Part shown: piece by piece, positions 1,190 to 54,800 of the stretch
Position numbering within the stretch: position 1 is the first letter of the stretch
How the letters are laid out: every line of letters begins with the position of its first letter
Assembly: GCF_019059575.1 (NCBI RefSeq)
Contig: NW_024882189.1
Location: forward strand, 62,001 to 126,000
DNA length: 64,000 nt
Origin: Amphibalanus amphitrite
Taxonomy: Eukaryota; Arthropoda; Thecostraca; Balanomorpha; Balanidae
Direction: 5' to 3'
Notes under the pieces: generated by a model
Seen by the model: the letters and a program-made list of their open reading frames with translations, nothing else
What the model was told of the DNA's origin: nothing
Database searches by the model: none
Position numbers and translations under genes: made by a program

Positions 1190-4033
1190 CATATTCAGCC
1201 CAGATTCAGCCCGGATTCAGCCCAGATTCGGGACACCTCCGATCAAGCTGAAACTTGCACACAATGTAGGCCATGACATGCCAAATCCACAGTTCAAGTC
1301 ATTCGGTGGCACTCCTAGCCGTTTGACCTACAGAGGTCAGCAAAGGTCACGTGGCCCAAATTTGCACAGCAGATTGTGGCCCACCCAGTAGAGCTAGAGT
1401 GCTAAAAATGGCACCAATCGACTCGCCAGCATCTAATCTTACTTTCCCAACACTCATTTGACCGCTCAATGTCATGCGATGACCTAAGGTCATTTGTGGG
1501 CTATGTCGAAAATACACTTGCACAGCAGTTTTCGAGTAGATGGATTGACCGAATTCCAAATCAAAGCACATCATCGACCCATAGGCCGTAGTCACTTTCC
1601 TTAAAAACTGCTTTTCGATATGTCACCCCGTTTGACCTCGGCAGGTCAAAATGTGCAAATAAACGACACTCAATACGTCGCAGCCCGGATTCAGCCCAGA
1701 TTCGGGACACCTCCGATCAAGCCGAAACTCGCACACAATGTAAGCCATGACATGCCCAATCCACAGTCAAAGTCATTCGGTGGCACTTCCAGCCGTTTGA
1801 CCTACAGAGGTCAGCAAAGGTCACGTGGCCCAAATTTGCACAGCAGATAGTGGCCCACCCAGTAGAGCTAGAGCGCTAAAATGGCACCAATCGACTCGCC
1901 AGCATCTAATCTTACTTTCCCAACACTCATTTGGCCGCTCAAGGTCATGCGATGACCTAGGGTCATTTGTGGGCTATGTCGAAAATACACTTGCACAGCA
2001 GTTTTCGAGTAGATGGATTGACCGAATTCCAAATCAAAGCACAACATCGGGTAGCCCATAGGCCGTAGTAACTTTCCTAAAAAAAACGCTTTTTGGTATG
2101 TGACCCCGTTTGACCTCGGCAGGTCAAAATGTGCAAATAAACGACACTCAAAACTAGAGTTGCAAAGTTTCCCTACCGCATTACCGGCATGCCGGTAATT
2201 TTTCACTACCGCAGGTTTTTTGTGGTATCTGACATGTCTTGCCGGTAGCAAGCCGGTATTTTTTGTTTTGCACAAAAAAAATTATTAGCATATGATTCAA
2301 ACTTTGGACACTAAGAGGAAAATGTGGCATCTCTTGTAGGGGTAAACTGGAATCAACAATGTAGGTTTTTTAGTATGCCGGTAATTTGGTGGTGTTTTTG
2401 CTTTGGGCGTGGTAGCATGCCGGTATCCCCAAAAAAATTTGTGGGGCGGGGCGGTGCCGGTAGCAGACTTTGGGGGAAACTTTGCAACTCTACTCAAAAC
2501 GTCTCAACCCGGATTCAGCCCAGATTCGGGACACCTCGGATCAAGCTAAAACTCGCACACAAAGTAGGTCATGACATGCTTAATCCACAGTCCAAGTCAT
2601 TCGGTGGCACTTCCAGCCGTTTGACCTAGAGAGGTCAGCTAAGGTCACGTGGCCCAAATTTGCACAGCAGATAGTGGCCCACCCAGTAGAGCTAGAGCGC
2701 TAAAAAAGGCACCAATCGACTCGCCAGCATCTAATCTTACTTTCCCGACACTCATTTGACCTCTCAAAGTCATGCGATGACCTAGGGTCATTTGTGGGCT
2801 ATGTCGAAATTACAATTGCACAGCAGTTTTCGAGTAGATGAATTGACCGAATTCCAAATCAAAGCACAGCATCGGGTAGCCCATAGGCCGTAGTAACCTT
2901 CCTGAGAAAATGCTTTTCGATATGTGACCCCGTTTGACCTCGGCAGGTCAAAATGTGCAAATAAACGACACTTAATACGTCTCAGCCCGGATTCAGCCCA
3001 GATTCGGGACACCTCTGATTAAGCTGAAACTCGCACATAATGTAGGTCATGACATGCTTAATCGACAGTCCAAGTCATTCGGTGGCACTCCCAGCCGTTT
3101 GACCTACAGAGGTCAGCAAAGGTCGCGTGGCCCAAATTTGCACAGCAGATTGTGGCCCACCCAGTAGAGCTAGAGCGCTAAAATGGCACCAATCGACTTG
3201 CCAGCAACTAATCCTACTTTCCCAACACTCATTTGACCTCTCAAGGCTATGCGATGACCTAATGTCATTTGTGGGCAATGTCGAAAATACACTTGCACAG
3301 CAGTTTTCGAGGAGATGGATTGGCCGAATTCCAAATCAAAGCACATCATCGGGTAGCCCATAGGCCGTAGTAACTTTCCTTGAAACCTGCTTTTCGATAT
3401 GTGACCCCGTTTGACCTCGGCAGGTCAAAATGTACAAATAAACGATACGATCAACACGTCGCAGCCCGGATTCAGCCCAGATTCGGGACACCTCCGATCA
3501 AGCTGAAACTCGCACACAATGTAGGCCATGACATGCCCAATCCACAGTCTTAGTCATTCGGTGGCACTCCTAGCCGTTTGACCTACAGAGGTCAGCAAAG
3601 GTCACGTGGCCCTAAATTGCACAGCAGATTGTGGCCCATCCGGTAGAGCTAGAGCGCTAAAAATGGCATCAACCGACTCGCCAGCATCTAATCTTACTTT
3701 CCCAACACTCATTTGACCTCTCAAGGTCATGCGATGACCTAAGGTCATTTGTGGGCTATGTCGAAAATACACCTGCACAGCAATTTTCGAGTAGGTGGAT
3801 TGACCGAATTCCAAATCAAAGCACATCATCGGGCAGCCCATAGGCCGCAGTAACTTTCCTAAAAAAACGCTTTTCGATATGTGACCCCGTTTGACCTCGG
3901 CAGGTCAAAATTAGCAAATAAACGACACTCAATACGTCTCAGACCGGATTCAGCCCAGATTCGGGACACCTCCCGATCAAGCTGAAACTTGCACACAATG
4001 TAGGCCATGACATACCCAATCCACAGTCTAAGT
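1190..4033 (+). repeat. Forward arm: six ~478-bp units
   Basis: The landmark GATTCGGGACACCTC recurs near 1225, 1699, 2523, 3000, 3482 and 3958, spaced 474-482 bp except where the 338-bp hAT insertion and its duplication lie. Each unit carries TGACCT/AGGTCA palindromes. The sixth unit stops abruptly at about 4033, where orientation flips. Confidence 0.85.
2155..2492. mobile_element. hAT-type MITE
   Basis: This 338-bp insertion sits inside the second unit of the forward arm. Its ends are inverted repeats beginning TAGAGTTGCAAAGTTTCCC, and it is flanked by a perfect 8-bp duplication CTCAAAAC (2147-2154 and 2493-2500). An 8-bp duplication with TAGAG-type ends is characteristic of hAT elements. 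The interior holds scattered CCGGTA/TACCGGC motifs and no coding sequence. It inserted after the host array had formed. Confidence 0.85.
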
Positions 4034-4035
4034 CA

Positions 4036-6245
4036 AACTGCTGTGCAAGTGTATTTTCGACATAGCCCACAAATGACCTTAGGTCATCGCATGACCTTTA
4101 GAGGTCAAATGAGTGTTGGAAAAGTAAGATTAGATGCTGGCGAGTCGATTGGTGCCGTTTTTAGCGCTCTAGCTCTACTGGGTGGGCCACAATCTGCTGT
4201 GCAAATTTGGGCCATGTAACCTTTGCTGACCTCTGTAGGTCAAACGGCTGGGAGTGCCACCGAATAACTTGGACTGTGGATTGGGCATGTCATGGCCTAC
4301 ATTGTGTGTGAGTTTCAGCTTGATCGGAGGTGTCCCGAATCTGGGCTGAATCCGGGCTGCAACGTATTGAGTATCGTTTATTTGCACATTTTGACCTGCC
4401 GAGGTCAAACGGGGTCCCATATCGAAAAGCAGTTTTTAAGGAAAGTTACTACGGCCTATGGGATACCCGATGATGTGCTTTGATTTGGAATTCGGTCAAT
4501 CCATGTACTCGAAAACTGCTGTGCAAGTGTATTTTCTACATTGCCCACAAATTACCTTAGGTCATCGCATGACCTTGAGAGGTCAAATAAGTGTTGGGAA
4601 AGTAAGATTAGATGCAGGCGAGTCGATTGGTGCCATTTTTAGCGCTCTAGCTCTACTGGGTGGGCCACAATCTGCTGTGCAAATTTGGGCCACATGACTT
4701 TTGCTGACCTCTGCAGGTCAAACGGCTGGGAGTGCCACCGAATAACTTGGACTGTGGATTGGGCATGTCATGGCCTACATTGTGTGCGAGTTTCAGCTTG
4801 ATCGGAGGTGTCCCGAATCTGGGCTGAATCCGGGCTGCGACGTATTGAGTGTCGTTTATTTGCACATTTTGACCTGCCGAGGTCAAACGGAGTCACATAT
4901 CGAAAAGCAGTTTTTTTAGGAAAGTTACTACGGCCTATGGGCTACCCGATGATGTGCTTTGATTTGGAATTCGGTCAATCCATCTACTCGAAACCGCATG
5001 ACCTTGAGATGTCAAGTGTTGGGAAAGTAAGATTAGATGATGGCGAGTCGATTAGTGCCATTTTTAGCGCTCTACCTCTACTGGGTGGGCCACAATCTGC
5101 TGTGCAAATTTGGGCCACGTGACCTTGGCTGACCTCTGTAGGTCAAACGGCTGGGAGTGCCACCGAATAACTTGGACTGTGGATTGGGCATGTCATGGCC
5201 TACATTGTGAGCGAGTTTCAGCTTGATCGGAGGTGTCCCGAATCTGGGCTGCAACGTATTGAGTGTCGTTTATTTGCACATTTTGACCTGCTGAGGTCAA
5301 ACGGGGTCACATATCGAAAAGCGGTTTTAAGGGAAGTTACTACGGCCTATGGGCTACCCGATGATGTGCTTTGATTTGGAATTCGGTCAATCCATCTACT
5401 CGAAAACTGCTGTGCAAGTGTGCAAGTGTATTTTCGACATTGCCCACAAATGACCTTAGGTCATCGCATGACCTTGAGAGGTCAAATGACTGTTTGGAAA
5501 GTAAGATTAGATGCTGGCGAGTCGATTGGTGCCATTTTCAGCGCTCTAGCTCTACTGGGTGGGCCACAATCTGCTGTGCAAATTTGGGCCACGTGACCTT
5601 TGCTGACCTCTGGCTCTGTAGGTCAAACGGCTGGGAGTGCCATCGAATGACTTGGACTGTGGATTGGGTATGTCATGGCCTACATTGTGTGCGAGTTTTA
5701 GCTTGATGGGAGGTGTCCCGAATCTGGGCTGAATCCGGGCTGCGACGTATTGATCGTATCGTTTATTTGCACATTTTGACCTGCCGAGGTCAAACGGGGT
5801 CACATATCGAAAAGCGGTTTTTAAGGGAAGTTACTACGGCCTATGGGCTACCCGATGATGTGCTTTGATTTGGAATTCGGTTAATCCATCTACTCGAAAA
5901 CTGCTGTGCAAGTGTATTTTCGACGTAGCCCACAAATGACCTTAGGTCATCGCATGACCTTGAGAGGTCAAATGAGTGTTGGGAAAGTAAGATTATATGC
6001 TGGCGAGTCGATTGGTGCCATTTTTAGCGCTCTAGCTCTACTGGGTGGGCCACAATCTGCTGTGCAAATTTGGGCCACGTGACCTTTGCTGACCTCTGGC
6101 TCTGTAGGTCAAACGGCTGGGATTGCCACCGAATGACTTGGACTGTGGATTGGGCATGTCATGGCCTACATTGTGTGCGAGTTTCAGCTTGATCGGAGGT
6201 GTCCCGAATCTGGGCTGATTCCGGGCTGAATCTGGGCTGAATATG
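4036..6245 (-). repeat. Reverse arm: five ~478-bp units
   Basis: The inverted landmark GAGGTGTCCCGAATC occurs near 4327, 4806, 5231, 5710 and 6196. Spacing is 425-486 bp; the short interval reflects an internal deletion. Units are highly similar to the forward arm, implying recent amplification or ongoing conversion. Confidence 0.85.
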
Positions 6246-9413: not shown

Positions 9414-12400
9414 GTACGGCGCCAGACAGACGGCTAGGGGCGCCGGACAGACGGTAGGGGTTCGCGGAGCAGACGGTAGGGGTTCGCGGGGCAGACGGTA
9501 GGGGTTCGCGGGGCAGACGGATAGGGGGCGCCGGACAGACGGGTAGGATTGCGAGGCGGACCATCACCAGTCAGGTGGGGGAACGGGTCACTTAACGGTC
9601 AAAAGTAAAAATAAAGAGAATATCGCACCACGTGAGTCATGTTCCCAGATCTGGGATATAGCTGCTTTTCCTAAATTCGTTTTAACAGCCCTTATATACA
9701 CATTCACGTTGTCTACCTCAGTACCTGAGGGATAGGCAAATCAGATTAGATTATGTCTGTTTTTGCACTGGACTTATTTTCAGTTATCTGGATGCTTTCA
9801 TTGGGTGCTTGCCATTGTTCTCGCTCACATGCCTGTTGAAATCGCTGAGACATGGACGGCTGCCAGCGGGATGAACACACTACCGGCAGACCGCCGGGCC
9901 GGGGTGGGGCCTCCGTCCCGTCACTGGCCACCGGCCGGGGTGGGGCCTCCGTCCCGTCACTGGCCACCGGGCGGGCCGGGGAGGTGTTACCGTCCCGTCA
10001 CTGCCCACTGAGCCGAGACGCTGACCTGTGCTGTGGCTGACCTGTGCTGTGCTCATTAACGCTGACCGGCGCCGTGCCCAGTGCTCACTGGCGCTGACCG
10101 GTGCCGCGCCCCGTCGCCACTGGCGCTGACCTGTGTTGTGTGCACTGCCCAGTCGCCGCTGACGCGCCCGCCTCCCTCCTCAGCCGGGAGTCGGCCGGCG
10201 GCGGCGGTGTGTCTGCGCTGCTGGCAGTCTCCAGTCGGATGCCCCGCGAGGACATCCGACTGGAGACGGAGCGGCGACAGCAGCTGGCACACTCCATCCA
10301 GCTGCTGCAGCAGAAGGCGGCCCGTCAGCAGCGCGAGGTGGGTGCCGGAGGGGAGCGAGCGGTGGCGCGGCTCAGGGCCTCGTGTTCTCTGCGTCACCCA
10401 TGGTGTCACCGCCGTGTGCTGATTAGTCACATTCATTACGTCGCCGCCGGCAATAACACTGGCGGACCATGTCACCATAGGCAGTCGGTTTCCCTGAGCT
10501 TCGTGTCGCCGGTCCGGGAGAGAGAGAGCGCACGGTCACCTTTCCTGAGCTCTGACCGGCGGTGGGTGTACCGCAGGCTCGGCAGGGGATGGCGCTACCG
10601 ACCGGTCGGCCGCCGCCATCGGCTCGGACTCTGCCCGTCAGCCGTCAGCCGCCGGCCGCGCCAGGTACGACCACCGAGCGGAGGGGCCGACAGACCGGCA
10701 GTGGGGACTGGTAGACCGGCAGTGGGGACTGGTAGACCGGCAGTGGGGACTGGTAGACCGGCAGTGGGGACTGGTAGACCGGCAGTGGGGACTGGTAGAC
10801 CGGCAGTGGGGACTGGTAGACCGGCAGTGGGGACTGGTAGTCCGGCAGTGGGGACTGGTAGTCCGGCAGTGGGGACTGGTAGTCCGGCAGTGGGGACTGG
10901 TAGACCGGCAGTGGGGACTGGTAGACCGGCAGTGGGACTGGTAGACCGGCAGTGGGGACTGGTAGTCCGGCAGTGGGGACTGGTAGACCGGCAGTGGGGA
11001 GTGGTAGTCCGGCAATGGGGACTGGTAGACCGGCAGTGGGGACTGGTAGACCGGCAGTGGGGAGTGGTAGTCCGGCAATGGGGACTGGTAGACCGGCAGT
11101 GGGGACTGGTAGACCGGCAATGGGGACTGCATGAGGTCATTAGGGACTGATACACAGACGAAGGGCTGTTAGCTCAGCAGATGGACTGATGGACAGCAGA
11201 GGAGGCTGTCGGGAGGGTATTGGGGACCGGTAGACCGGCTGGGTGGTTCTCTGCATGCAGCAATACTGGTGCCATGTATAATTGCATACCGTGTTTGCTG
11301 CTTGGAGAAAAGTCATGTTTTTTTGTGACGCCTCTACGCTTCCTGTTCTGTCGGACGCATTTTTGCGCGTAACATCGCGTTGCCACGTTCTCTCAGTAGT
11401 ATCGGCTTTATTTCTTCTGCGATGCTGACCGTGCCGTTCCACCTCCGTCAGGTTCAGTGCCGCCCGGCACGGGTCCTCCCTCGGCTGTTGGGAAGGCCCC
11501 CAGGGCGAGGCCGGGCCCTCCGAGTCTCCGCGGCCCGCCGGCGGCGGCAAACTCGGTCCGGGCGCCGGCGGCGGAGCTCGGTCCGCTGGACAGTGGCGCC
11601 GCTCCTCGCCAGAGCGGCCCTGTCGACCAGGCGGCCACTAAGCGACCCGCCGACCAGCCGACCGACCGACCGGCGGCCAAGCGCGCCTGTGTGCGGACCG
11701 GTCCGGGGAGCACAGTGCCGGTGAGCCCCACCGGCCCCGCGCCGGCCCCTTCAGTCTCCGGCCCCGCACTCGCCGACCCAGCCGCCGCGGGGCGCAGTGC
11801 CGCGCCCTCTGCCGTACACGTGCCGCCCGTAGCCGCCGACCCGGTGAACGGTGACAGCGCTGCCCGTTACTCTCCCGCGTCAGCCGTCAGTGGCTGCCGC
11901 ACAACTGCCCCCTCGGCCGCATTCAACCCCACCCGCTCAGCTGCGCCCACGGCTGCTACCTTCTCCACCCCCAGCCCCGCACCTGTCCCTGGCCCTACGG
12001 CATCGTCCGACGCCATCCCCACAGCTGCCGACCCCGTCCCCACAGCCGCGACAGACACCGTCCCTGCAGCCCCTCCCGACGCCATCCCCACAGCTGCCGA
12101 CCCCATCCCCACAGCCGCGACAGACACCGTCCCTGCAGCTGCTCCCGACGCCATCCCTGCAGCTGCCGACCCCGTCCCCACAGCCGCGACAGACGCCATC
12201 CCTGCAGCTGCTCCCGACGCCTATCCTGCAGCTGCCGAGCCCGTCCCCACAGCCGCGACAGACACCGTCCCTGCAGCCCCTCCCGACGCCATCCCCACAG
12301 CCGCGACAGACACCGTCCCTGCAGCCGCGACAGACACCGTCCCTGCAGCCCCTCCCGACGCCATCCCTGCAGCTGCCTACCCCATCCCCACAGCCGCGAC

Positions 12401-15400
12401 CGACCCCGTCCCTGCAGCCGCGACAGACACTATTCCTGTAACTGCTCCCAACCCCGTCCCCACAGCTGCCGACCCCATCCATACAGCTGCAGCCGACGCC
12501 ATCCCTCTAGCTGCTGAACCCGTCCCAACAGCTGTAGCCGAACCTATCCCTGCAGCTGCCGACCCTATCTTTACAACTGCCCTCGATCCCGCTCCTGCAA
12601 GTGTTACCAATCCCATCCCTACAGCTGTCTCCCAGTCCATCCCTATAGCTGCCGACCCCATACCTACAGCCGCCAAAGACCCCATCCCTACAGCCGCCAA
12701 AGAGCCCGTCCCTACAGCTGCGGCCAACGCGATCCTTGGAGCTCCCGACCCAGTCCCCACAGGTGTGGCCGAACCCATCCCTGCGGCTGCCGACACCATC
12801 TTTACAACTGCTCCCAACCGCATCCCTGCAGCTGCCCTCGACCTTGACCGTACAGCTGTCGACCCCATCCCTACTGCTGCCGACCACATCCCTGCAGCTG
12901 CTGACCGCATCCCCACTGATGGCGCCCCCATCCCTATAGCTGCCCCCGACGCCATCCCTGCAGCTGCCGCTCTCGACGCCATCCCTACAGCTGTGGCCGA
13001 CCCCATCCCTACAGGTGCCGATCCCGTCTTCGCAGCTTCTCCCGACTGTATCCCTGCAGCCGCCAAAAACACCATCTCTTTAGCTGCCCCCGACGCCATT
13101 ACTACAGCTGGCGCTCTCATCCCTATAACTGCCGCTCCCGACGCTATCCCTACAGCTGTGGCTGACCCCATCCCTACGGCTGCTCCCGATGCCATCCCTG
13201 TAGCTGCCGACCCCGTCCCTACAGCTGCGGCCGACCCCATCCTAACAGCTGCCGATCCCATCTTTACAACTGCTCCCGACCCCATCCCCACAGTTGCCGA
13301 CCCCATCCCTGCAGCTGCCGACGCCAATCCTACAGCGGCCTATGAAGCCATCCCTGCAGCTGTTACCGATCCCATATCCGCAGCTGTGCCCGACCCAATC
13401 CCTGCAGCTGTCCGCGACCCCGTCCGTGTGGCTGCCGACCCCGTTCCTGCAGCTGCCGACCCGATCCTTGCAGCTGCTCCCGACCCAATCCCTGCGGCTG
13501 TCCCCGACCCAATCCCTGCGGCTGTCCTCGACCCCGTCCCTGCAGCTGTTCCCGACCCCTTCCCTGCAGCTGCTGACCCCGTTCCTGCAGCTGCGGCCAT
13601 TCCTTTCCCGTCCACCGCTGCCAGTCCCACTCATAAGGGCAAGAAGGCGTGGCTGAGTCGCTTGGCGAGCTGTGAGGTGGCGGACGGTCCGCGGGAGGGT
13701 GGTGTGCACGGCGCCCCCGTCCCGGCAAACACCTCTCCTCAGGGACCGGCGGACGGCACACCGGCCGAGACCGACGGAAAAAACGCCGAACGGAGCGGCT
13801 GGAACGACAGAGACAGAGACGGCTGGTGCAGCATGGACCGAGCCTGTTGGTGCAGCAGAGACTGAGACGGTCGGAACGACGGCAACCGAGATGGTTGAAA
13901 CGGCAGCGGAAAAGCCGGCTGGTACAGCGGGGACAGAGCCGGCTGGTACAGCGGGGACAGAGCCGGCTGGTACAGTGGGGACAGAGCCGGCTGGTACAGC
14001 GGGAACAGAGCCGGCTGGTACAGCGGGGACAGAGCCGGCTGGTACAGCGGGGACAGAGCCGGCTGGTACAGCGGGGACAGAGGCGGCTGGAACAGCGGGG
14101 ACGGAGCCGACTGGAACGGTACCGACAGAGGTGCCGGGGGCAGAAGGGACTGGATCGATCGGATCAGTACGGACGGAGGCGGCTGGTACAGCAGGAACGG
14201 AGGCGGCTGGTACAGCAGGAACGGAGGCGGCTGGTACAGCAGAAATGGAGGCGGCTGGTACAGCAGGAACGGAGGCGGCTGGTACAGCGGGGACAGAGGC
14301 CAGTGACGCCGCTGAGACAGCTCCGGGTGCTGCGGGAGGGCCGGAGGCGGACGGCACAGCGCCGGCTGAGCCGGCCGGGGCGGGTGGCTGGCCGGAGCAG
14401 ACCGGGACGGAGACGGAGGGCTCCTCGCCGGCCGAGGTGGACGGCTCGCCGCCAACGAACGGCGACCGGACGCCGCCGGCGGCGGGAGACAGTTCCTCGG
14501 GCGACGGCGACGCGGCCGCGTCCAACGGTGTGCTGGCGCCGCGCGCCGCCGCCGCCGCCACCAAGGCGGCCGCCGCCATCAAGAAGAGCCCCGGCAAACC
14601 GAGGAAGAGGTCGGCCGCTAGCCCGGGCGGGGAGGCCGTGAAGCGGCCCTCCGTGATGGCACTGAAAAAGTCGGGCGAAAAGTTCACGCAGACCAACTTT
14701 TGCTGTCAGATCACGTACAAGCTGCCTCGGTGCCGCGAGTGCCGCGCGGTGCCCACCCAGCGACACAACAAGCCGTCGGGCATCTACTGCCGGTTCACAG
14801 CGTTCCGCAAGGTGCGTTACACGCGCACCGGTCAGCTGGCCGTGGCCGGCTTCTGCGACCCGTTCACCGACTCTGGCGGCGAGAGCGACCGGCTGTGGCG
14901 CGCCAGCGCGGCCGGCCCGCCCACCATGCAGCCTGAGATCGCGAAGTTTCTGCTGGCGCACGTCGGTAACCAGTTCTGTGACCTGGTGTCCGAGGAGGAG
15001 GCTGCGCGTCGCGCGCACATGGGCGACGACCAGACGGTCGCCTGGAAGCGGGTCGTGCAGGGCTGCCGCGAGATGTGTGACGTGTGCGAGACGACGCTGT
15101 TCAACGTGCACTGGGTGTGCTCGCGGTGCGGTTTCGCCGTCTGCGTGGACTGCTACCGGGGCCGGCGAGACGGCACGGCGCGCAGCTTCGGCGACCCGCC
15201 GCCGGAGCGCGACCAGTTCCGGTGGCTACTGTGCGGTGCGCGGCCGCACCAGCAGGAGCGGCTGATGCTGACGCAGATTGTGGCCGGTGACGCACTGCAG
15301 ACACTGAACCGACAGGTGCACGAGGCGCGCCAGCTGGCCGGCCTGCCGCTCAGCTGCGACTGCGAGCTGGCCAAAAAGCTGCAGGCCGAGGCGGCCGAGA

Positions 15401-20169: not shown

Positions 20170-20335
20170 TCAGCTGACGTTGGTGACGTGGTGGCGCGTC
20201 ACCAGGCCGACGCGCTGGTGGCGCGCGCAGAGCAGCCAGTGACTGTCCGTGGTGCCCACCACGGTCAGCGTGTCGTCGCGGTCGTACGAGAGGAACTGGC
20301 GGTTCGGCGTGTGGTACGGGACCAGCGAGCGAACC
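20170..20335 (-). CDS. RUSC: RUSC last exon, SH3 domain
   Basis: Acceptor TGTGTCGCGCAG, entering in phase 2; stop at 20,170. The 55 codons hold almost an entire SH3 fold: SLVPY for the ALYDY strand, [12 protein letters not shown], then DSHWLL and [10 protein letters not shown]. The usual Pro before the last strand is Thr here, so ligand binding may be altered. Confidence 0.85.
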
Positions 20336-23300
20336 CTGCGCGACACACAGCGGCGCGTCACGGGCCGGCGCACTGGCGGCGAGCGGACAGCACAGCAGAC
20401 AGCACAGCGGACCGAGCAGCGAACAGCACAGCGGACCGAGCAGCCAGCTGCCCATGCACGCACAGACAGCACTGAGGCAACATGTGGGCGGCGTCTATGT
20501 CTATACCAAAGTTAGGAGTGGCATTCCTCTGCAAAAGAAATAAATCCACAGACGAAATGTTTAACGTGCGAACTGCGTTACTTTGAGGTCGGGCGGTCCG
20601 GTTAAGACCATGAGTATTGATGCCCCTTTGAATAAGTATCGGAACTGCCGGGACCCAGGTTTTCAGGTGAAGCTAATTGCAAACAAAGTTAAAGGCAAGT
20701 CATTACCCAGACCAGTTTCTTGTCAGGACACAGTTTGACCGAGACGCACCTTTTTCCCTGCCTGCTCTCGGCGGTGGCGGCTCCGGTGCGGCGCGCCGCT
20801 GCGGTCCCGGTCCCGGTGCCGGCGGCCGGCCGCAGCGGCCCGCTCCGCGCCGCCTCCCGGCTCTGGTTCGCCTGCTCCTGGTCCCGCTTCAGCACGCGCT
20901 GCCGCAGACTGGCCTCCGAGGCCGTCCGGAGGCGTCTGGAGCCGCCAGTGGCCGCCAGCGCCGGCTGGCGGCCGCCGTCCGTGTCCGGGCTCTGCGGGCC
21001 CCCGGCGGGGACGGCGCGGCGCCCGGCCGCCGGCTGGGGGTAGCCGCTGTCCGAACTGGGGCGGCGCCCGGCCGGCGTCCCGGACACTCTGCGCGGGATG
21101 CGCGACTCGGCCGGCGGAGAGGCGCGGCCGGCCGGCGGCTGCTGCGACTGGCGCTCCCACCAGGGCTGGCTCGAGCTCTGGTCCCTGGTCACCCGCTGCC
21201 ACCACTCGTCCAGCTGCCGGGCCCGGGCCCTGCTCACCAGCGGCTCCGGCTCCGGCTGCCGCTCCGGATCATAGTCGGGTCCATTCTGCCGGTCTGAATG
21301 CCGTTCTGGGAAGTTCTCCCGGTTCTGTTTCGCCGGCTGTGGCTTCTTTTTAGCATCGATCTCCACTTTCGTCTCCTGTTTCGGTTCTGGCCTCAGTTGG
21401 GTGTTGGGTTTTGGCCCCGGTTGGCTCGGGTTCGGCTGCACGGCCGTCCGCGCTGGGTCGCGTCCTCTGCCTCTGGGCTTAGTCTTTGGCTCGGTGGCGG
21501 TCTGTCTCTGGCCGGCCGGTGCCGGTGCCGGCTCTGCGCGCGGCGCGGCTCCGCGCCCGGCCGCCGCGGCGCTGTTGTCATTCTCGTCTGTGTCGAGCGG
21601 CACACACCCGGCCAGGGTCTCGGTGAGCGCGGCCAGCAGCCGCCGGTCCAGGTCGCGTCCCGTCCAGCGCCGCTCCAGCTTGCCGCGGATGGCGGCGGCG
21701 GTGACGCGCGCCTGCCGGGCCGGGGGGCCGGCGCCGGCGGTCCGGCCGCCGGACGGGTCGGCGCCCAGCTCCATCAGCCGCCGGCCGAGCCGCCACAGGC
21801 TCTGGCGCAGCAGCTGGCTCTCGAAGGTGAGTTCGATGGCGAATCCGGGCCGCGCCAGCCGGCGGAGCTGCAGCAGCAGCCGGTCGGCGTCGGCGGCGCC
21901 GAGCTGCCGGACCAGCGCCTCGGCAGAGTAGTGCTTCAGCAGCGCCGGCGGCCGGCCGAGCAGCCAGCCGAACCACCGGTCCAGCGACTGTGTGCTGCCG
22001 GCAGCGGACGGGAGTCAGTGGGCAGCCAGCCGAACCACCGGTCCACCAATAGATGCTTGGCGTGATATAGGTACCGAAACTTTGTAAGGTAGGGCCAGGG
22101 GTAAGGCAATGTGCCGCCGACTGGACCAGCAGTTTAACCGTGGGTAGGTAGAATATGGCGGCATCCGCATGAATAACGTGTGCTTTTTTAAATGTAAGTT
22201 GAAATAAATCGCATAAAAGTAAGCCACTTTCTTACTTTAGTAGTCCAAACACGAATGCGTTGAACTTGAGGACGCTTTCGGAGAGCTCCTCTTCATTGTT
22301 CACCTTCAGCACGAGATCACTGAGCGGCTGAGGACATATGCCTGGAATGCGATGCGCGGTTTCAGAATCAGCTGATGCATACCTACCGCTCGTCATATGT
22401 TCATAAATTGTTGGTACATACAATCAAGGTACAATCTTCCACAGTGAGCAATATAGCAAACTACCTACCTACCCAGTAGGTACCCGCTGGTCAGCTGCCG
22501 CCTGATGAGCCTTTTATGGCGATTATAGATTGCTCTCTGCCAGGGTACATCGAGCTGTCTGCTCTGTAAGCCTAGCAGAGACGTATTTGCACCGAGGCCG
22601 TCTATTACGCTCCCTCCATGCTCCGACTGGAGAGCCGCATACCGTAGATTAGTTTATTCTGTAGCCGCTAGATGTCGCTAGTAGTCTGCGCCTGAGGTGG
22701 TATACTGTTCCGCCTGACATGGAACCGCAACGGCTATCGACATATAACCCTGGGATAGAGTCCGAGGGACAAGCTCCCACAGTTCATGTAAAATAGCAGC
22801 TGAATATTCACTATTTGATTTATGTAGCTATTATATTTCTCATGGAAGACAATTTATTCTCTGTGAGCCGGAGGTGGGAGCCCCAGATAGCCCATTTATC
22901 CTGGACGCCATTGTAACACAGGAAGTCGTATTTCAGGAAATCGTAAATGAGAAGGCCGCCGTAGGTATTAATAAGAAGGGGATTGTCAGCGAGATTAGCC
23001 CCTTCTCTGCGTATTCCTAACGCATGCAATATCAGAGCAGTGTAATGTGACAGTTTATTTTTGAAAGCCTTTTAGTCGTTCTTCTATAGGAACTTTCCCA
23101 CCTACAGGCGCGCACACAGGATTTTTTAATGGAGGGGGCGCGACCTGCACACTGGGTCCCCATGCCAAAAGGCCCCAGGTCCCAGCCGAAAAAGTTGCCC
23201 TACATGGACTCATATGGGCCTGCTGGGGCCCGAGACGGGCCCTCCTGGTCTTTTCAGTCATCATTTCAGCTCATTTTTAGACGGTCTTCGGCGGTCTAAA

Positions 23301-26300
23301 GATTAGGGGCCCATTTGAGGAGCATTTGAGGCTGCCTTCGGCCGCCTCAAATGGGCCCCTCAATTTGAATGGGGAGGGCGCGGGCCCGTGTGCCTCTCCA
23401 CCCCTTATGTGCGCCCTTGCCTACCTATTGATATTTGCTATGGCTCTGGTCACAGACTGACTTGGACATACGCGTACCAATTGAGAAGGGAGGAAAACAG
23501 AAAGACTGACTTGTGGCAGGGGTGTCCGACCACGGTAAGGGTGGACCCAAAGGAAAATTGACTGGCCGGGAGGACAGGCCCACTGACCGGGAGGACAGGC
23601 CGACTGACCGGGAGGACAGGCCCACTGACCGGGAGGACAGACCCACTGACCGGGAGGACAGGTCCGGGAGGACAGGTCCGGGAGGACAGGCGCACTGACC
23701 GGGAGGACAGGCCGACTGACCGGGAGGACAGACCCACTGACCGGGAGGACAGGCCCACTGACCGGGAGGACAGGTCCGGGAGGACAGGCCCACTGACCGG
23801 GAGGACAGGTCCGGGAGGACAGGCCCACTGACCGGGAGGACAGGCCCACTGACTGGGAGGACAGGTCCGGGAGGACAGGCGCACTGACCGGGAGGACAGG
23901 CCCACTGACCGGGAGGACAGGCCCACTGACCGGGAGGACAGGTCCGGGAGGACAGGCCCACTGACCGGGAGGACAGGTCCGGGAGGACAGGCCCACTGAC
24001 CGGGAGGACAGGCGCACTGACCGGGAGGACAGGCCCACTGACCGGGAGGACAGGCCCACTGACCGGGAGGACAGGCCCACTGACCGGGAGGACAGGTCCG
24101 TGAGGACAGGTCCACTGACCGTGAGGACAGGCGCACTGACCGGGAGGACAGGCCCACTGACCGGGAGGACAGGCCCACTGACCGGGAGGACAGGCCCACT
24201 GACCGGGAGGACAGGCCCACTGACCGGGAGGACAGGCGCACTGACCGGGAGGACAGGTCCACTGACCGGGAGGACAGGCCCACTGACCGGGAGGACAGGC
24301 CGACTGACCGTGAGGACAGGCCGACTGACCGGGAGGACAGGCCGACTGACCGGGAGGACAGGCGCACTGACCGGGAGGACAGGTCCGGGAGGACAGACCC
24401 ACTGACCGGGAGGACAGGCGCACTGACCGGGAGGACAGGCCGACTGACCGGGAGGACAGGCCGACTGACCGGGAGGACAGGCCCACTGACGGGGAGGACA
24501 GACCCACTGACCGGGAGGACAGGCGCACTGACCGGGAGGACAGGCCGACTGACCGGGAGGACAGGCCCACTGACGGGGAGGACAGGCGCACTGACCGGGA
24601 GGACAGGCCCACTGACCGGGAGGACAGGCCCACTGACCGGGAGGACAGGCCCACTGACCGGGAGGACAGGCCCACTGACCGGGAGGACAGGCCGACTGAC
24701 CGGGAGGACAGGCCGACTGACCGGGAGGACAGGCCCACTGACCGGGAGGACAGGCCGACTGACCGGGAGGACAGGCCCACTGACCGGGAGGACAGGCCCA
24801 CTGACCGGGAGGACAGGCCCACTGACCGCGAGGACAGGCCCACTGACCGGGAGGACAGGTCCGGGAGGACAGACCCACTGACCGGGAGGACAGGCGCACT
24901 GACCGGGAGGACAGGCCGACTGACCGGGAGGACAGGCCCACTGACCGGGAGGACAGGCCCACTGACCGGGAGGACAGGTCCACTGACCGGGAGGACAGGC
25001 CCACTGACCGGGCCCAGCAAACATGCCCACATGGTTCCCATATGGGGCCCACATGGGCCCCCCACCTCTTCCATATGGGCCCCACATGGGAATGGCAGTG
25101 GGTGACACGTGGGACCCATATGGGCCAGCCCACGTAGGCCCCATATGGGACCCACGCGGCGCCCACATGGGACCCATATGGGTAGCCCATCTGTAGCCCA
25201 TGTCCCACGTCGGCCCATCTGGCCCATGTTCACCCCATATGGGACCCACATGGGATGCCCATCTCCAGCCCACATGCGTTTGGCCCATCTGGCCCATTTT
25301 TATCCCATATGGGGCCCATATGGGTAGCCCATCTGTAGCCCATGTCCCACGTGGGCCCATCTGGCCCATGTTCACCCCATATGGGACCCATGTGGGCATG
25401 TTTGCTGGGGGAGGACAGGCCCACTGACCGGGAGGACAGGCCCACTGACCGGGAGGACAGGCCGACTGACCGGGAGGACAGGCCCACTGACCGGGAGGAC
25501 AGGCCCACTGACCGGGAGGACAGGCCCACTGACCGGGAGGACAGGCCCACTGACCGGGAGGACAGGCCGACTCCACCAGGCGCCAGACGCTGTTGTGCAC
25601 CGGCCCGAAGGCGGTGTCGAGCCGCGTGAGGAGGCCGTCACCGAGCAGCGTGTACAGAGCGGGACAGAGCCGGTCCAGCACCAGGTAGCCGATGGCAGGG
25701 CTGCGCCGACTGTCCCCGAGCAGCTGGCCGCCGACTGTGGCACACAACACACGGCCAGTGAACCAACGCGGCACCTGTGTACCTAACACAATGGCACCGA
25801 TCTGAAACATCCAGAACTGCAGGACGTGGTGTTTTACCAGTCTAAGAATGAAATAAAATAAGATAAGCGCCTAACGTGGAAATATTACTTTCAGTAGGTA
25901 TAACTCTTAATCGTAATAGAATGCCTTATTGGTATGGAAGGTGTCAATACCGCAAAGTATGTGAGTGTGTAAGCAGGTATGTCTTACCTGGATCATTTGA
26001 TGACAGGGATATTGCACTTGATTGGAAGTAGGCCACGATCGACGACACACTTTCAGTGATAAGACTCAGGGCCTCTGTAAGATGACATTTATCGGTTAGT
26101 GTACGATATGCGTAGAGTAGATACGTCTACAAACGAATAAGGAAAGAGTAACTAATCGTATGCTTGCACGCTCTAGCCATGTATTTCATCACATTGGGAT
26201 ATAACTTAGCCGTAGTAACTTATATTTCGTGAATAAAGCTGGATAGGCGCTAAAGCTTAGGTAAATATTTCTTACGAGCATAATCTAGCAAAGATGCAAG

Positions 26301-37824: not shown

Positions 37825-39845
37825 CTCAATTACAGTAGCGGCTGAACACCTTCAACTAAGGGGGGGGGGGGGCACTGCCGACTTTTGGTCCCATTCTTTC
37901 CATGCAACGCCCATAGGGCTAATGTTAAAATGCCAAAATCAAAGGGGGGCACGGTGCCCCGGTGCCCTCTCCGTTCCGCCGCCTATGCTCAATTACATGT
38001 TATTCATGCACTCAAGTATTCAAGTCCATACCTATACCATTATGGTAAATCTACCTGCATTGATCTTCCATATCCCACGAACACGGAAAAGGTATGCCAT
38101 TCTCACAGGCCAGTCGTCCACTAATTGCGCTTGACCTTTCCAAAGGTGTGAGCATTTCGTTACAAATGCATGAACATACCGTGCGCGAGCACAGCTTGCA
38201 ATGAGTCGTTAGCGCCTCCTGGATGCGAGATTCTCATGTGTACCTGCCCAAATAATATCGTTGAAGTGTAGCACGAAACAAACTGTGAACATGGAGAACA
38301 TGAGGCGAGCTGTACAATTTGTGAACCCGAGAACAGTGGTCAGTGAACATCGTGTGGCGCGCGACAAACGGTTCAACTCAAATCGTTTACCTACGTGGAG
38401 TGGATCTTTCGAACCTTATCGCTAGCGTGGATAGCTCGGGACAAATTGGCTCGGGACAGACGGTAGGGTGCGGATAGCCCGATACGTACGGTTGACTCTT
38501 CATATTGCCTTGTGATTGTCACACACCAAAGGCGAATATTGTTATGGTATCTTGTTGTTTGCTGCAGGAAAGAAATGATGGATCGGATCGGACTGATTTA
38601 CGTAATTCACTTTATATGTTTCAGGAACCTGGACGAGCAGCTCGGGCCCTGCATCTTTGCAGCAAACCGTCGTCACTGAAGAAAGGTATGTGCCCCTTGC
38701 CGTTTGGCCCCTGATCGAGCTAGGGCTTCGTAGAAGGAACGAGCGCTTTGCCAGTGACGAGAGGAAGCCGATAATACCCAATTTTAAGGGCTATGTCATT
38801 GGTCAACCTTCCATGTCAGGTCAATGACACAAAAGTCGGGAAATTTGGGACCAATTAGAACTTTATAAAGTGAGATTCAAGATTGTTATGGGGTGTTATG
38901 AGGTGCTCGGTCAGACGCAGGTCAGGTCAGGTCAACTAGTAGGCGTCCTGCCGGCTATCCATAGTAGGTGTCAACCACTACTGACACCTCGTAACATGTT
39001 ACGAAGCCCGAAGGCACCAAAATACTTCGTAAATGTTCAAATGAGCGCCAAATTCGAAATCAGCAGCTAAAAAAACTGCCCTAGGAACATGTACCTTAAG
39101 TTCTCAAAAGTGAGTCGATGACATCCAAGGTCAATGAACTTAAACTGTTATGGGGTTTTGCGGGGTGCTGATCACGAAATTCATGTTGGTTTTGATCACA
39201 GATGATGTATTCATGCATTTAAGCCAGGTCAGGTCAGGTCAGATCAGGCCAGGTCAGGTCAGGTCAGGTCAGGCCATGTTATGAAGGCACCAAAACTAAT
39301 CCGTAAATGTTCAAATGGGTGCAAATTCTAAATCAACTAAAAAAACTACCCTGGAAACGTAAAACTCGCAAAAGTGAACAGCGAACCGAGGTCATCCAAG
39401 GTCAATGACCTTGACCTGACCTTTGCATGAGCTTGACACCCACCATAATGTATGGGGCCAACATCATTTCACATGTTTGAACGTTTAAAACCACAAAAAA
39501 AAACGGAAACACGCGGACAATGTAAGCCGACATACGCTAAATCGCGATTCCGGCCAAACATGGTCTCGAGAAACATATCACAGGTCAAAGGTCATTTGGG
39601 TCAGGGTCAGGACATGTTTAGGTTAGGTGTAAAATTGGGATATAGGTATGGAATTATGAGTTGTCTCATCTTTTTCTATTTCCTGCGTAGGAATAATAAT
39701 AACCAGGCAGGTTGATTGCTACCTACTGGCAATGCTTCTCTTTGGCATCAGATAATCACATTGAAATGTCATTGAAAGTTTCTTGTTGTAGCACGTGCTG
39801 TATAGGCAAGACATAGGTAGGTATAAGTTGTATGAGAAAAACGCT
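37825..39845. other. Non-coding, repeat fragments
   Basis: A G12 run near 37,861 begins a short segment whose end (GTTCCGCCGCCTATG) recurs at the window start. GGTCA pentamers occur at about 38,920 and 39,225-39,280. No exons seen. Confidence 0.45.
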
Positions 39846-48800: not shown

Positions 48801-51800
48801 TCTGTGTTTAAGGGACCCTCCCACCTTAACATTAGATTTGAGTTGAGATAGCCAAAATGGGGTCCCTGGCTCACAATTACCGGTTTCGGCACTCACAACA
48901 TCCAGAAATGCCTTAAATCGGAAATATTGAATTTCAAAATTGCAGCATTTTGATTCAGAGGGGCTAATGCATAGGAATACCCCTCTGAATGTGTGACGTC
49001 AGCGCAGATATCTAACGATTTTTAAATGTTTGACTAAAACGTTTTGTAGCACGCGGTGGTATATGCTGCTTTGCGCGCAACAAATGCCGCACTTTCAAAT
49101 AAAGTCGCTATAGGAACAGCGGAGATCCCAAAAAGTAAACAAAAGTAAAAGTCTAATATCTTGAAAACCGGTGAATATTTTTCGATGAAATTTGGTAGAT
49201 ATTTGTTTTTGCTCTTTCTGAACCGAGCGACATCACTTTCATGCCAATTCATTTACTTTTTTGAAGGTGGGAGGGTCCCTTTAAGGCTTTCGCTATTTTA
49301 CGACCCATCGCCATGTGTAGGGGAAGCCGGGGGAAGCCCGGCATAGTAAGCTCTTTTTCATTTTTATTACATACCATACGTGCTGTATAAAATGTTGATA
49401 TCCTGCTAGCTAGCTAAGTTCATTGGCCGTGTTTTCCCAAAAATTCGGTTTCGTGGAATAAGTATAAGGTTGAGAAAATCGAGTTTTAAAAAAGTGTTGA
49501 TTTTTCTGGGGTAAGCCCGGCATAGGGGTAACGCCGGCCACCTCCCCAGCGCTTTACAGCGAGTTGATGAAACCATTATGTGTTTTCCAAATATTAACGG
49601 AAAGTGAAATATTAAGGTACTGATTAGCTCTGGACATCTTAGAGTTTATGTCACTACTGGTATTTTAGCTAGCGTCTACTACATATACAGTACAGGTCGA
49701 TGAAAATCGTCATGCAAAATTGACAAAAAATGTGTATTTCAAAATTCCTTAAAATCTATTTTTCTTTTTACCTTAATGCATCATATTGCATATCATTCGA
49801 CTCGGCTGATGAAGAAGAACACAACGACACCATTTTTGAAGCTCTAGCTTCATTGTCTGTCGCGTTATCTGCAAAAACGTAGTTTGACCCTAGTTGACCT
49901 TAAGTGACATGACTGGCTTTGTCTTTGATAACATGTTTATTTTCGAAATTTATCTTTGATCTAGGTGTAACCCAAACCTGCTCAGTACCTATTATCTCAT
50001 GGAAAACAGTGGTTTAGTGGCATTGCTCTCGGTTGGGGGTAAGCTTGGCCACTTGCCCGGGGTTACCCCAAAGTGCTAATTTTTATTTTAGAACAGCGAT
50101 ATTCAAAAAAATGTCATACTTAAGCCAGCCTGCCTCGTCACCCCTCACTACAAACACTTAAACGGTCCTTACATAACATTCGTATAAATATTAGTACTGT
50201 ATGGTATAACATTAACAGTGCAACATATCTCACTTTTTTGCTAAAAACCCTTAAAATATCATTTTTGCGCTATAACTTTAACAATATGCAATTTTTGTCA
50301 GCCTTAACTTTTTTGCTGGCGTTACCTTAGCTGCCACGCTGAAAGGACAAACAGTTGAGCATTTTATTGTGAATAATTTAGCCGGAAACGGGGTGGCCGG
50401 GCTTCCCCCGCGCCCGGGCTTCCCCCGGCTTCCCCTAATATCGGGACTTCGTGATTTTATTTACGATCCCCATTTGAGTGTCGTATGATCGATCATGGTA
50501 TGTAATCCCCTTCCCGAGTCCCAAAGGACTGTGCATACATTTCCCTTAACAGTCTTCCATTTATTCAGGCCTATGGGGGCTACATAAGAATAATCACTGT
50601 ATAAAATGAGGACCATGTGCGTTCAGTTAAAAGGTCTGCCGTATAATAGCCCTCGGCAAGCGTTAATCGGTAAGATACACAGCGATATCTGGTGTGTATC
50701 ACTGCTGATGTGAGTACCCTCGTTCGGACAACACGTCACATCATTGGTGTACGTGACGCGGACGCGGTGTGCCGCACTCCGAGTAATGGGAATCCGATCC
50801 GCCGCAGGCCGCGATGAAACTGCCCATCAACGAGAGGAAGCCCCGTCCCGGCAACGCGCATCGGGTCAGAGCTAAAACGCCAGGTCAGTGCACTGCAGCG
50901 ACAAGCCGGGACAGCGAACGTTCACAATCTCCTCCTTTCAAACCTAGACTGCAGCAGTTGGGCTGATAGCATTCGCAAAGTACCGTGGAAAGGACCTGCA
51001 TCACAGGCCGAATATTCCCGACAGCACTTATCGTCCTCTACCAGTGTTGATCAGATGACTCGTGTTACCGGTATAACTCGATGACAGCAAAAAGTAACAT
51101 CTACTGGTAAATGGCTTTGCGATTGACATCAATACCACCACCATTTCTGACCACGGCATACTGTTCATAACCCGAATAGGAATAGGATTGACAATCATGT
51201 AAACGACAAATTGTTGGCGTGTCAATGCCACAAACACTGAAAGAGCAAAGTTATCCCTGAGTTTTTTTTTAAGTCAGACAAAAGGCATGCGAATTGCGAG
51301 ACACCCATGCATGCCCTGTCGTGCGGTACAGTTTACATACAGGGGTAACATGTCGTGCCGCACAGTCTAATAGGGGTTACATGTCGTGCGGCACAGTCTA
51401 CATACACGGATCACATGTCGTGCGGCACAGTCTACATACAGGGGTAACATGTCGTGCGGCACAGTCTACACACAGGGGTAACATGTCGTGCGGCACAGTT
51501 TACATACACGGATCGCATGTCGTGCGGCAGAGTCTACATACAAGGGTTACATGTCGTGCGGCACAGTCTACACACAGGGGTAACTTGCCGTGCGGCACAG
51601 TCTACATACAGGGGTAGGTAACATGTCGTGCGGCCCAGTCTACATACAGAGATCACCTGTCGTGCGGCACAGTCTACATACAGGGGTAACATGTCGTGCG
51701 GCCCAGTCTACATACACGGATCACATGTCGTGCGGCACAGTCTACCTACATACAGGGGTAACATGTCGTGCGGCACAGTCTACATACAGGGGTAACATGT

Positions 51801-54800
51801 CGTGCGGCACAGTTTACATACACGGATCGCATGTCGTGCGGCACAGTCTACATACGTGGGTAACATGTCGTGCGGCACAGTCTACATACAGGGGTAACAT
51901 GTCGTGCGGCACAGGCTACATACAGGGATTACATGTCGTGCGGCACAGTCTACATACAGGGGTAACATGTCGTGCGGCACAGTCTACATACAGGGGTCCT
52001 CTGTCGTGTGGCACAGTCTACAATACAGGGGTCACGTGTCGTGCGGCACAGTTTACATACGGCACAGCACCTGTCATACGGCATAGTCTACACCAGGGCC
52101 TCCTCTAACATGTTAACTGGGGGGCCGCGCCCCCCCCCCCCCAGTGATGCCGCTGGCCCCCCCAGTTGAGCTGAAATCGCGTTACTGGGGGGGCCACTCA
52201 GTTAAGCAAATCACGTAGAAAAACGAGGAAATTTCACTGTAAGCTTACCAAACAAACAATCCAGACTATCTCCACGATCACCACGTTACTAATTTTAGTT
52301 TCCTTATATCGTTGGTTTCTTATCTACAGGTTTTTTTTTTTAAGATCCGCCTAGGATGAGCCGCAGAATGAGGTCAGACATTGCAGATTTTATAATCGAA
52401 CGCCGACTGAAGCCCAAGTGGGGCATCACTTTGAGAAGGAAACAGCCCGAACGGTCGCCCTCTATAGTCTCAATCAGTCAAGCGCTTACGGTTCAACACG
52501 GAGAAGTATTATGTTTTCTTTTTTTCGGGAGACGGGTTTATTCTTGAAGAGTAATTTTTTTACGGTCAAATAAGAGTGCGGCTGAGCTTTATAGCACCAT
52601 ATAAAAGTTTTTTTCCAGTGTTTGGCACTATAGTTCGTTTATTTTCAAAAGGACGCTGGCTCAAAGTTCAATATCGAAGCTCTCACGTGAGTTTTGGCAG
52701 CTTCAGTGTCTGGCCAAGAATTTCTTACCGAAAAAATAATCGATTTCAAATTTTGCACGGTAAGTAGCTGGAAATTGTTTCTTAAAAATGAACATACTAT
52801 GATGACGTCACTGGTGGCAGCAGACACCCAAATGCCCGTGCAGTGGGACAAGTGTCAACGAATTTGAGTGAAACTTAGTTTTTCACTGTTGCCGAGCTTA
52901 TAATCGAGTGAGCGGTTCCGTCCATGATAGTCATAAGTTAAATTGAAATACATGTTCGACAGCATGACGTCACCGCTGTTATCATATCTGCTTCCAAAAC
53001 GCCCATATGGAAATTATCGGGAAGAAATCACATGTTAAAATTAGTCGACGTTCGATTTTCTCAGGTTCAGTTTTTGCTCGTTTTGCTCGCTAAAACACGT
53101 GCTTGTTCGAAAAACATACTTGGAGCCAGCGTCCTTTTGAAAAAAAAAAAAACGAACTATAGCAGCGATAAGCCTTCTCACTTATTGAGGGGTTGATAGA
53201 CCCCACCCCTAGCTTTTTTGCGAATAACTCGCATAAAAATTGGCCCAGCGTGGCAAAAAAATTAGTAGGTACTCTCGCGATTAGTTCAATTCTACACATT
53301 TCCTGAAAATGTAATTACCCTGTTCCCTGACCCTCATTCTCATTGACCTGTGGCCTGTTTCTTGAGTCATTTTCAGGCAAATAGCTTTTTAGGATGGTGA
53401 GCTGTTTTCAGGCAGGTAGCTGTTGGTTTCCAGCGTTTGGGAAATGGATGCCTAAGCCCTCACATTTTCTGCGGTCGGTTAGATTCCTTATGCACTGCTG
53501 TGCCGTTTAATGCTTTTTTTTAATAAAGGCATTTTGTTTCATTTTCGGAAAGCCGGAAGCTTTCGTCGATTTCGGACGTTGCGGGGGATATTTACCCCAA
53601 ATGTCACCCTGCCCGTGCCGGTCTGGATCTACCGGTATAGGGTCGTGGCCTACTATTTCTTTTTTTTTTCTCAAAATAAAAATGAAAATCATGGCATCAG
53701 GGCTGTGACGAAAAAATTATAAGTGGCCTAAATCCGATGAGAAAACCGGATTTGGGGGTACCCTAGGTTTGACTTCTGAGCCTCTGCCCCCCCCCCCCAG
53801 TGAAAATTCCTTAGAGGAGGCCCTGGTCTACACAGGCATTAGCTGCCATGCGGCACAGTCTACATACAGGGGTAGCCTGTCGTGCGGCACATTCAATACA
53901 GGGCTCATCAGTCGTGCGGTGCAGTCTACATGCATAGGGTAAGGTGCCTAATTAACGACCCCCTTAATTTGAACCGTCATTGCTCACGCTCTATGGGTGC
54001 CACTGCATTACTGGCTTGATTTTCGGAGAGATCGTTCATTTTTCTATTATCATATAGTCATTTTCTGCCCCAATATCCATTAATTTATTTGTAATGAGCA
54101 TTTTAGCAAACCATTGCAAAAAAAAACGCTAATAGGGAACGAACTCTTCCCGATTAGCGACCGGGGAGGGTCGCTAATAAATCTATGGGTTTTCCCATAT
54201 TAAAAATGGCAAAAAATGCGACGCCAGAAAAGATGAAGTATGATCCCAAAAAGGTAACCTATACGCAAAGCACTCAATAACAGGAACGCTTATCCAACAC
54301 GTATACGTAAGTAAAAACTGATCACGTAATGCACCGAAGGCGAAAAGAAGACGAAGACCCGAATTTTGCGGGCTATCTATCTCGTATGATATTCGGGGTT
54401 CGCGCTGGATTCGGCACCCCATGCAGTCGGTGACGACATTTGGCATCCCCTGCCACACATTGTAAGCTTCAGCAAAACCTCATTTTCATTTGTCTTTTTT
54501 CCCCTTTCTTTCCCTTCTTGAGCTATTTGCGACCATGTCGGACGCGAATAGGAAATATGAGTTGGGACACATTTTTAACCGCCATGCAGTGTACAGTTAA
54601 CTGTTAAGCGATTCACTATGGGAAAGCGACAATCAATTGAATAAGGATTGTCAATTCAGAATAAAAGAGGTGCATCATTCTAATGTGCATCGCTTTTCAT
54701 CAGAGAAGGCCCAAATACACACGTTTTGAATAAGAAACTCGTAATTTTTATTTAAACTCACCTGAATCGTCCCACCAGAAACACCGACAACCGGAAAATA

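Follow-up and report, generated by a model that had tools for sequence, protein, structure and literature searches.

Tandem repeats that carry splice signals have been described in several settings. In intron 7 of the human coagulation factor VII gene (F7), 37-bp repeats begin with a unit that holds the real 5' splice site and continue with highly homologous units; of these sites, only the one furthest upstream is normally used, through what is termed an 'oriented scanning mechanism' (PMC6627357). In genes of human segmental duplications, minisatellites at exon-intron boundaries are described as able to give alternative splicing through new introns (PMC2812944). The polyubiquitin gene UBC is itself a tandem array, in which AGGT sites between the coding monomers act as both 5' and 3' splice sites (PMC10809524). 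Tandem duplication has also been proposed as a source of splice signals in intron gain, the potato RdRp gene being one example (PMC4974935).

Here we describe a 21-bp minisatellite that begins within the RUN-domain exon of a RUSC-like gene of the barnacle Amphibalanus amphitrite and continues into the following intron (minus strand, 23,561-25,572; positions refer to the window, the whole stretch of 64,000 nucleotides that was analysed). Minisatellites that repeat a donor are of a kind already known; the size of this one is remarkable, and what sets it apart is how exactly it overlaps the donor and how many copies it holds. As in F7 intron 7, the first unit straddles the exon-intron junction and later units bear the same 5' splice site. 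The copy number in F7 is far below that of the RUSC array. The barnacle array also differs from F7 in its shorter unit, 21 bp rather than 37 bp, which is divisible by three and has no stop in any of the three sense frames, and in its interruption by a palindromic element; use of the first site is here what we infer. Whereas the human boundary repeats were described by paralogue comparison with transcript support (PMC2812944), the RUSC array is a single locus read from its sequence alone. It resembles UBC (PMC10809524) in that its tandem units hold a splice site at a constant position, but its units do not keep frame, ten of them being 14 bp long. Because AGGT is absent from both array blocks (it occurs once in the insertion between them), the array is not of the UBC kind. 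As for potato RdRp (PMC4974935), tandem duplication is proposed as the source of the splice signals. No published description of this locus was found in the literature searched, although one may exist elsewhere.

Table 1 Features of the RUSC-like gene and its donor-bearing array, in order of transcription (window positions; a slash marks the exon-intron boundary).
Feature	Position	Strand	Properties
Upstream exon	25,988-26,074	-	In-frame join; donor CAG/GTAAGA; by eye
RUN-domain exon	25,555-25,734	-	End CCTGTCCTCCCG/GTCAGT; in-frame joins; RUN 53.6 bits
Proximal array block	25,410-25,572	-	7 donors, all in phase with next exon, stop-free
First donor CCG/GTCAGT	25,549-25,557	-	Last exonic base 25,555
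Insertion	25,011-25,409	-	399 bp, palindromic, inverted-repeat ends; splits array after seven in-frame donors
Distal array block	23,561-25,010	-	Ten frame-shifting 14-bp units; 59 of 66 donors
Next exon	22,236-22,341	-	Entry CATTCCAG/GCATATG; phase is that given by first donor
Downstream exon completing RUN domain	20,750-21,994	-	In-frame join; RUSC1/2 alignment runs on through exon
C-terminal SH3 exon and stop	20,170-20,335	-	SH3_2, SH3_9 scores

The five predicted exons, picked by eye on homology, phase and GT/AG ends, join into a single open frame with a terminal stop (Table 1). The joined product carries a RUN domain at 52-54 bits (52.1 in the full join; cut-off 22) and a C-terminal SH3 domain that lies just above the cut-off for SH3_2 (22.0 bits; cut-off 21.8) and just below it for SH3_9 (28.3 bits; cut-off 30). 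Compared with the PDB at E values up to 1, the RUN part gave two matches only, Iporin/RUSC2 (1.3e-22) and RUSC1 (5.5e-22). With a RUN domain nearest RUSC1/RUSC2, as judged among solved structures only, and a C-terminal SH3, the product belongs to the RUSC family. An earlier reading of the DNA from its letters, hereafter the sequence-only reading, had already named the gene RUSC and placed the two exons that flank the intron; the domain scores and PDB matches bear out the first claim, and the in-frame joins and RUSC1/2 alignment the second. Elsewhere in the same gene, TGGACCGGTGGTTCGGCTGGCTGC is present twice, 62 bp apart (22,045-22,022 and 21,983-21,960, minus strand), one copy being intronic and the other lying close to where the next RUSC exon begins; this pair is a second exon-edge duplication within the gene.

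TRF reports the 21-bp array in two parts, 23,561-25,012 and 25,409-25,572. When successive TGTCCTC heptamers (up to one mismatch allowed) were taken as unit anchors, 80 anchors gave 79 spacings, comprising 68 of 21 bp, ten of 14 bp and one of 420 bp. The final 18 nt of the exon (25,572-25,555) exactly match an array unit of the CGG type, so the array starts within the exon. GGTCAGT occurs 66 times in the array and CCGGTCAGT 63 times, and the last exonic base of the first GGTCAGT is 25,555, exactly where the donor had previously been placed. The claims that the intron opens with dozens of copies of its own donor, and that the units have this motif in common, thus stand with corrected counts. 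The further claim that every full unit repeats CCG/GTCAGT was too broad: CCGGTCAGT is intact in 62 of the 68 21-bp spacings, and the other six deviate at -3 or -1. The ten 14-bp units lack a donor, and the final array unit reads GGCCAGT. At up to two mismatches, the 18-mer CCTGTCCTCCCGGTCAGT matches 69 times in the window, compared with a mean of 0.01 in 100 shuffles.

The palindromic insertion at 25,011-25,409 went unmentioned in the sequence-only reading. The inverted repeat at its ends spans 56 nt including flank and is 86% complementary; within the window, the end motif occurs solely at these two ends (up to three mismatches). We read the insertion as a probable MITE-like element whose target duplication is short (2 bp, not resolvable within a run of C). 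Its length is a multiple of three, and it contains no stop in the exon frame compared with two and one in the other two frames. The exon frame was also open in 77 of 2000 dinucleotide shuffles of the insertion, a test that is post hoc and too strict: part of the insertion repeats with a 72-bp period (TRF) that keeps the frame, so the shuffles overstate the surprise of an open insertion. The element is also rich in CCCATATGGG palindromes.

We consider it likely that the RUN exon is joined from the first, exon-attached donor and that the remaining 65 copies are decoys. When joined without any insert, the product shows no gap at the junction in alignment to human RUSC1 (4giw) or Iporin/RUSC2 (6if2), and one added heptapeptide costs 9-10 bits, lowering the score from 83.9 to 74.7 bits for 6if2 and from 81.8 to 71.8 bits for 4giw. 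First-donor use is expected from this zero-insert fit, from the minority of donors that are in phase (20 of 66), from the tolerance of ten 14-bp units and from the lack of visible coding constraint in the units. Several observations were counted against it, namely a weak donor score, no distinguishing feature in the first copy, a tolerant RUN model and the matching phase of the first 14 donors. The first donor scores 6.34 on a matrix with a maximum of 12.58, below all three neighbours scored (8.6, 11.0 and 7.5), but its predicted U1 duplex of -6.0 kcal/mol falls inside the span from -4.5 to -11.0 seen in four further RUSC donors, the consensus giving -13.2; both the matrix and the U1 5' end used are approximate. 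The general Pfam RUN model charges only 2.3 and 3.3 bits for an insert of 7 or 14 residues at this place; it therefore allows variable length at the junction, and an insert need not break the fold.

We looked for a sequence feature that distinguishes the first donor copy from the other copies and found none, so its choice would need exon context or position. Predicted RNA accessibility was rejected as a cause, the first donor ranking only 16 of 66. In classical work, intron-proximal sites are often favoured when U1 occupancy is high, which likewise counts against use of the first donor.

A donor outside the array, with the phase match of the first donor a coincidence, is extremely improbable. 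By the same approximate matrix, eight other GT 9-mers between 25,565 and 22,342 do score within 0.01 of CCGGTCAGT or above, among them TAGGTAGGT at 22,469 and GAGGTGGGG at 25,066, but a donor past the array would render the whole array and the insertion exonic, and the stop of that frame is met by 23,450. The nearest upstream GT (CTG/GTGGAG) was rejected as a candidate: by eye, it falls on a codon boundary and would not match the phase of the next exon, and the RUN score drops from 53.6 to 46.1 bits when the nine residues that follow it are deleted (a plain deletion, which differs from the exact product of that GT).

Twenty of the 66 donors are in phase with the next exon, of which seven precede the insertion, seven directly follow it, five lie at 24,085-24,001 and one lies at 23,833. 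The remaining 46 donors all lie past a 14-bp unit and lead to a premature stop after the join. The first 14 donors, which span the insertion, are thus all in phase, compared with only 6 of the 52 later ones. These numbers reflect few independent phase events, because donors sit in runs between 14-bp units, and the initial run of 13 among 78 unit spacings free of 14-bp units has a chance of 0.14. The exon frame stays open through array and insertion up to the stop at 23,450. The earlier rule that every in-register unit would supply the phase of the next exon is borne out, as is the accompanying warning that 14-bp units shift the frame.

The sequence-only reading had drawn from this rule that alternative donor use could insert heptapeptides in varying numbers, a proposal that our analysis does not support. 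In its most favourable form, donor choice would be stochastic among the first seven units or, if the insertion is exonised, among the first fourteen donors, and would place variable numbers of QWACPPG-type heptapeptides in a loop of the RUN domain. The matching phase of the first 14 donors agrees with this, as do the stop-free exon frame through array and insertion, the insertion length divisible by three with the exon frame alone open, and the tolerance of the Pfam model for 7-14 residues at the junction; tandem splice sites in UBC are moreover described as able to yield stochastic unit numbers (PMC10809524). Set against it are the 46 of 66 donors that shift the frame to a stop and the RUSC1/2 structures, which carry no extra residues at the junction and fit the zero-insert product best. 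Of the 19 in-frame donors past the first, 13 would exonise the 399-bp insertion too. The shuffle test lends the open insertion less weight than it seems to, for the reasons given above, and the proximal run free of 14-bp units is compatible with chance. We regard stochastic heptapeptide insertion as very unlikely. Slightly less probable still is that the proximal array and the open insertion form a working length generator, in which donor choice and germline copy number would give the RUN loop 0 to 6 heptapeptides, or at least 182 extra residues by way of the insertion, across cells or individuals.

Variation among the units bears on the same question. The 68 21-bp units show eight substitution types at six variable positions, every one of which changes an amino acid in the exon frame, so no coding constraint was visible among these unit variants. 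Synonymous changes are possible in 14 of 63 cases, and the chance of finding none among eight types is 0.13; the substitution pattern is weak evidence against a coding role, and the substitution and phase evidence are each weak singly. Selection on the donor motif was likewise considered and set aside: GTCAGT is invariant in 68 of 68 21-bp units, yet TGTCCTC, outside the motif, is invariant too, with the caveat that the units themselves were located by TGTCCTC at up to one mismatch.

Two further roles for the array do not depend on its coding potential. Copy number might differ between individuals and tune splice efficiency, longer arrays lowering or raising the rate of correct joining. The order of the unit variants, which by eye resembles repeated segmental duplication, makes length change likely, and variable repeat numbers are reported for F7 (PMC6627357). 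The length of the MIR137HG VNTR correlates with splicing, the novel donors there lying in pre-miR-137 sequence (PMC6692358). The barnacle array is known from one haplotype, and such tuning seems to us unlikely.

Alternatively, the array could serve as a U1-binding platform that keeps the transcript from being cleaved prematurely at poly(A) signals within the intron itself (telescripting). Downstream of its 66 donor-like sites come ATTAAA at 23,130 and AATAAA at 23,059, 22,858 and 22,658, and protection by U1 is described in human, mouse and Drosophila (PMC5499120). The sites are weak in the duplex fold (-6.0 vs -13.2 kcal/mol for the consensus), and the unit-position counts show no sign of selection on the motif. 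Hexamers of the poly(A)-signal type are also common by chance, which we counted against this explanation, and we hold it to be highly improbable. Neither selection nor the frame past the first 14 donors supports heptapeptide insertion, U1 binding or copy-number tuning.

We return to splicing from the first donor and to how the array may have arisen. Most likely, the 3' end of the exon was tandemly duplicated together with its 5' splice site, giving rise to an intronic minisatellite, which would then have expanded through ordinary repeat turnover. Splicing would proceed from the first donor, and the other 65 copies would act as decoys that may bind U1 transiently, as is reported for the repeats of human F7 intron 7, presumably with little effect. 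If the first donor is indeed faithfully chosen among 66 near-identical competitors, the locus offers, in a different gene, a harder natural test than those human repeats of how position governs the choice of 5' splice site. If it is not faithfully used, the locus would yield many RUSC isoforms or many nonsense transcripts.

The surrounding DNA is itself rich in minisatellites: 22 arrays, hand-picked from an 87-row TRF table, cover 18% of the window. In 24% of 20,000 trials in which these arrays were circularly shifted, an array end came to lie no more than 20 bp from at least one of ten RUSC junctions. Proximity of the array to a junction is thus unremarkable in itself, whereas its exact overlap with the donor stands out. 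In four others of the 22 arrays, with copy numbers of 2.2 to 5.5, donor-like sites also number at least half as many as the units.

Other repeats in the window have features of their own. On the plus strand, two long arrays at 12,007-14,298 fall in long open frames that precede a JmjC domain and seemingly encode DPIPTAA- and AGTAGTE-type repeats, the second sharing a 1131-codon frame with JmjC. A short CAGGT repeat at 39,223-39,276 (plus strand) gives a run of donor-like 9-mers, with CAGGTCAGG occurring six times. Separate arrays at 51,317-52,060 and 54,930-55,332 apparently have one 34-bp unit in common, and the arrays of ~480-bp units at 2,492-4,035 and 4,995-6,228 are apparently mutual inverted copies, as 9-mers are common to their opposite strands.
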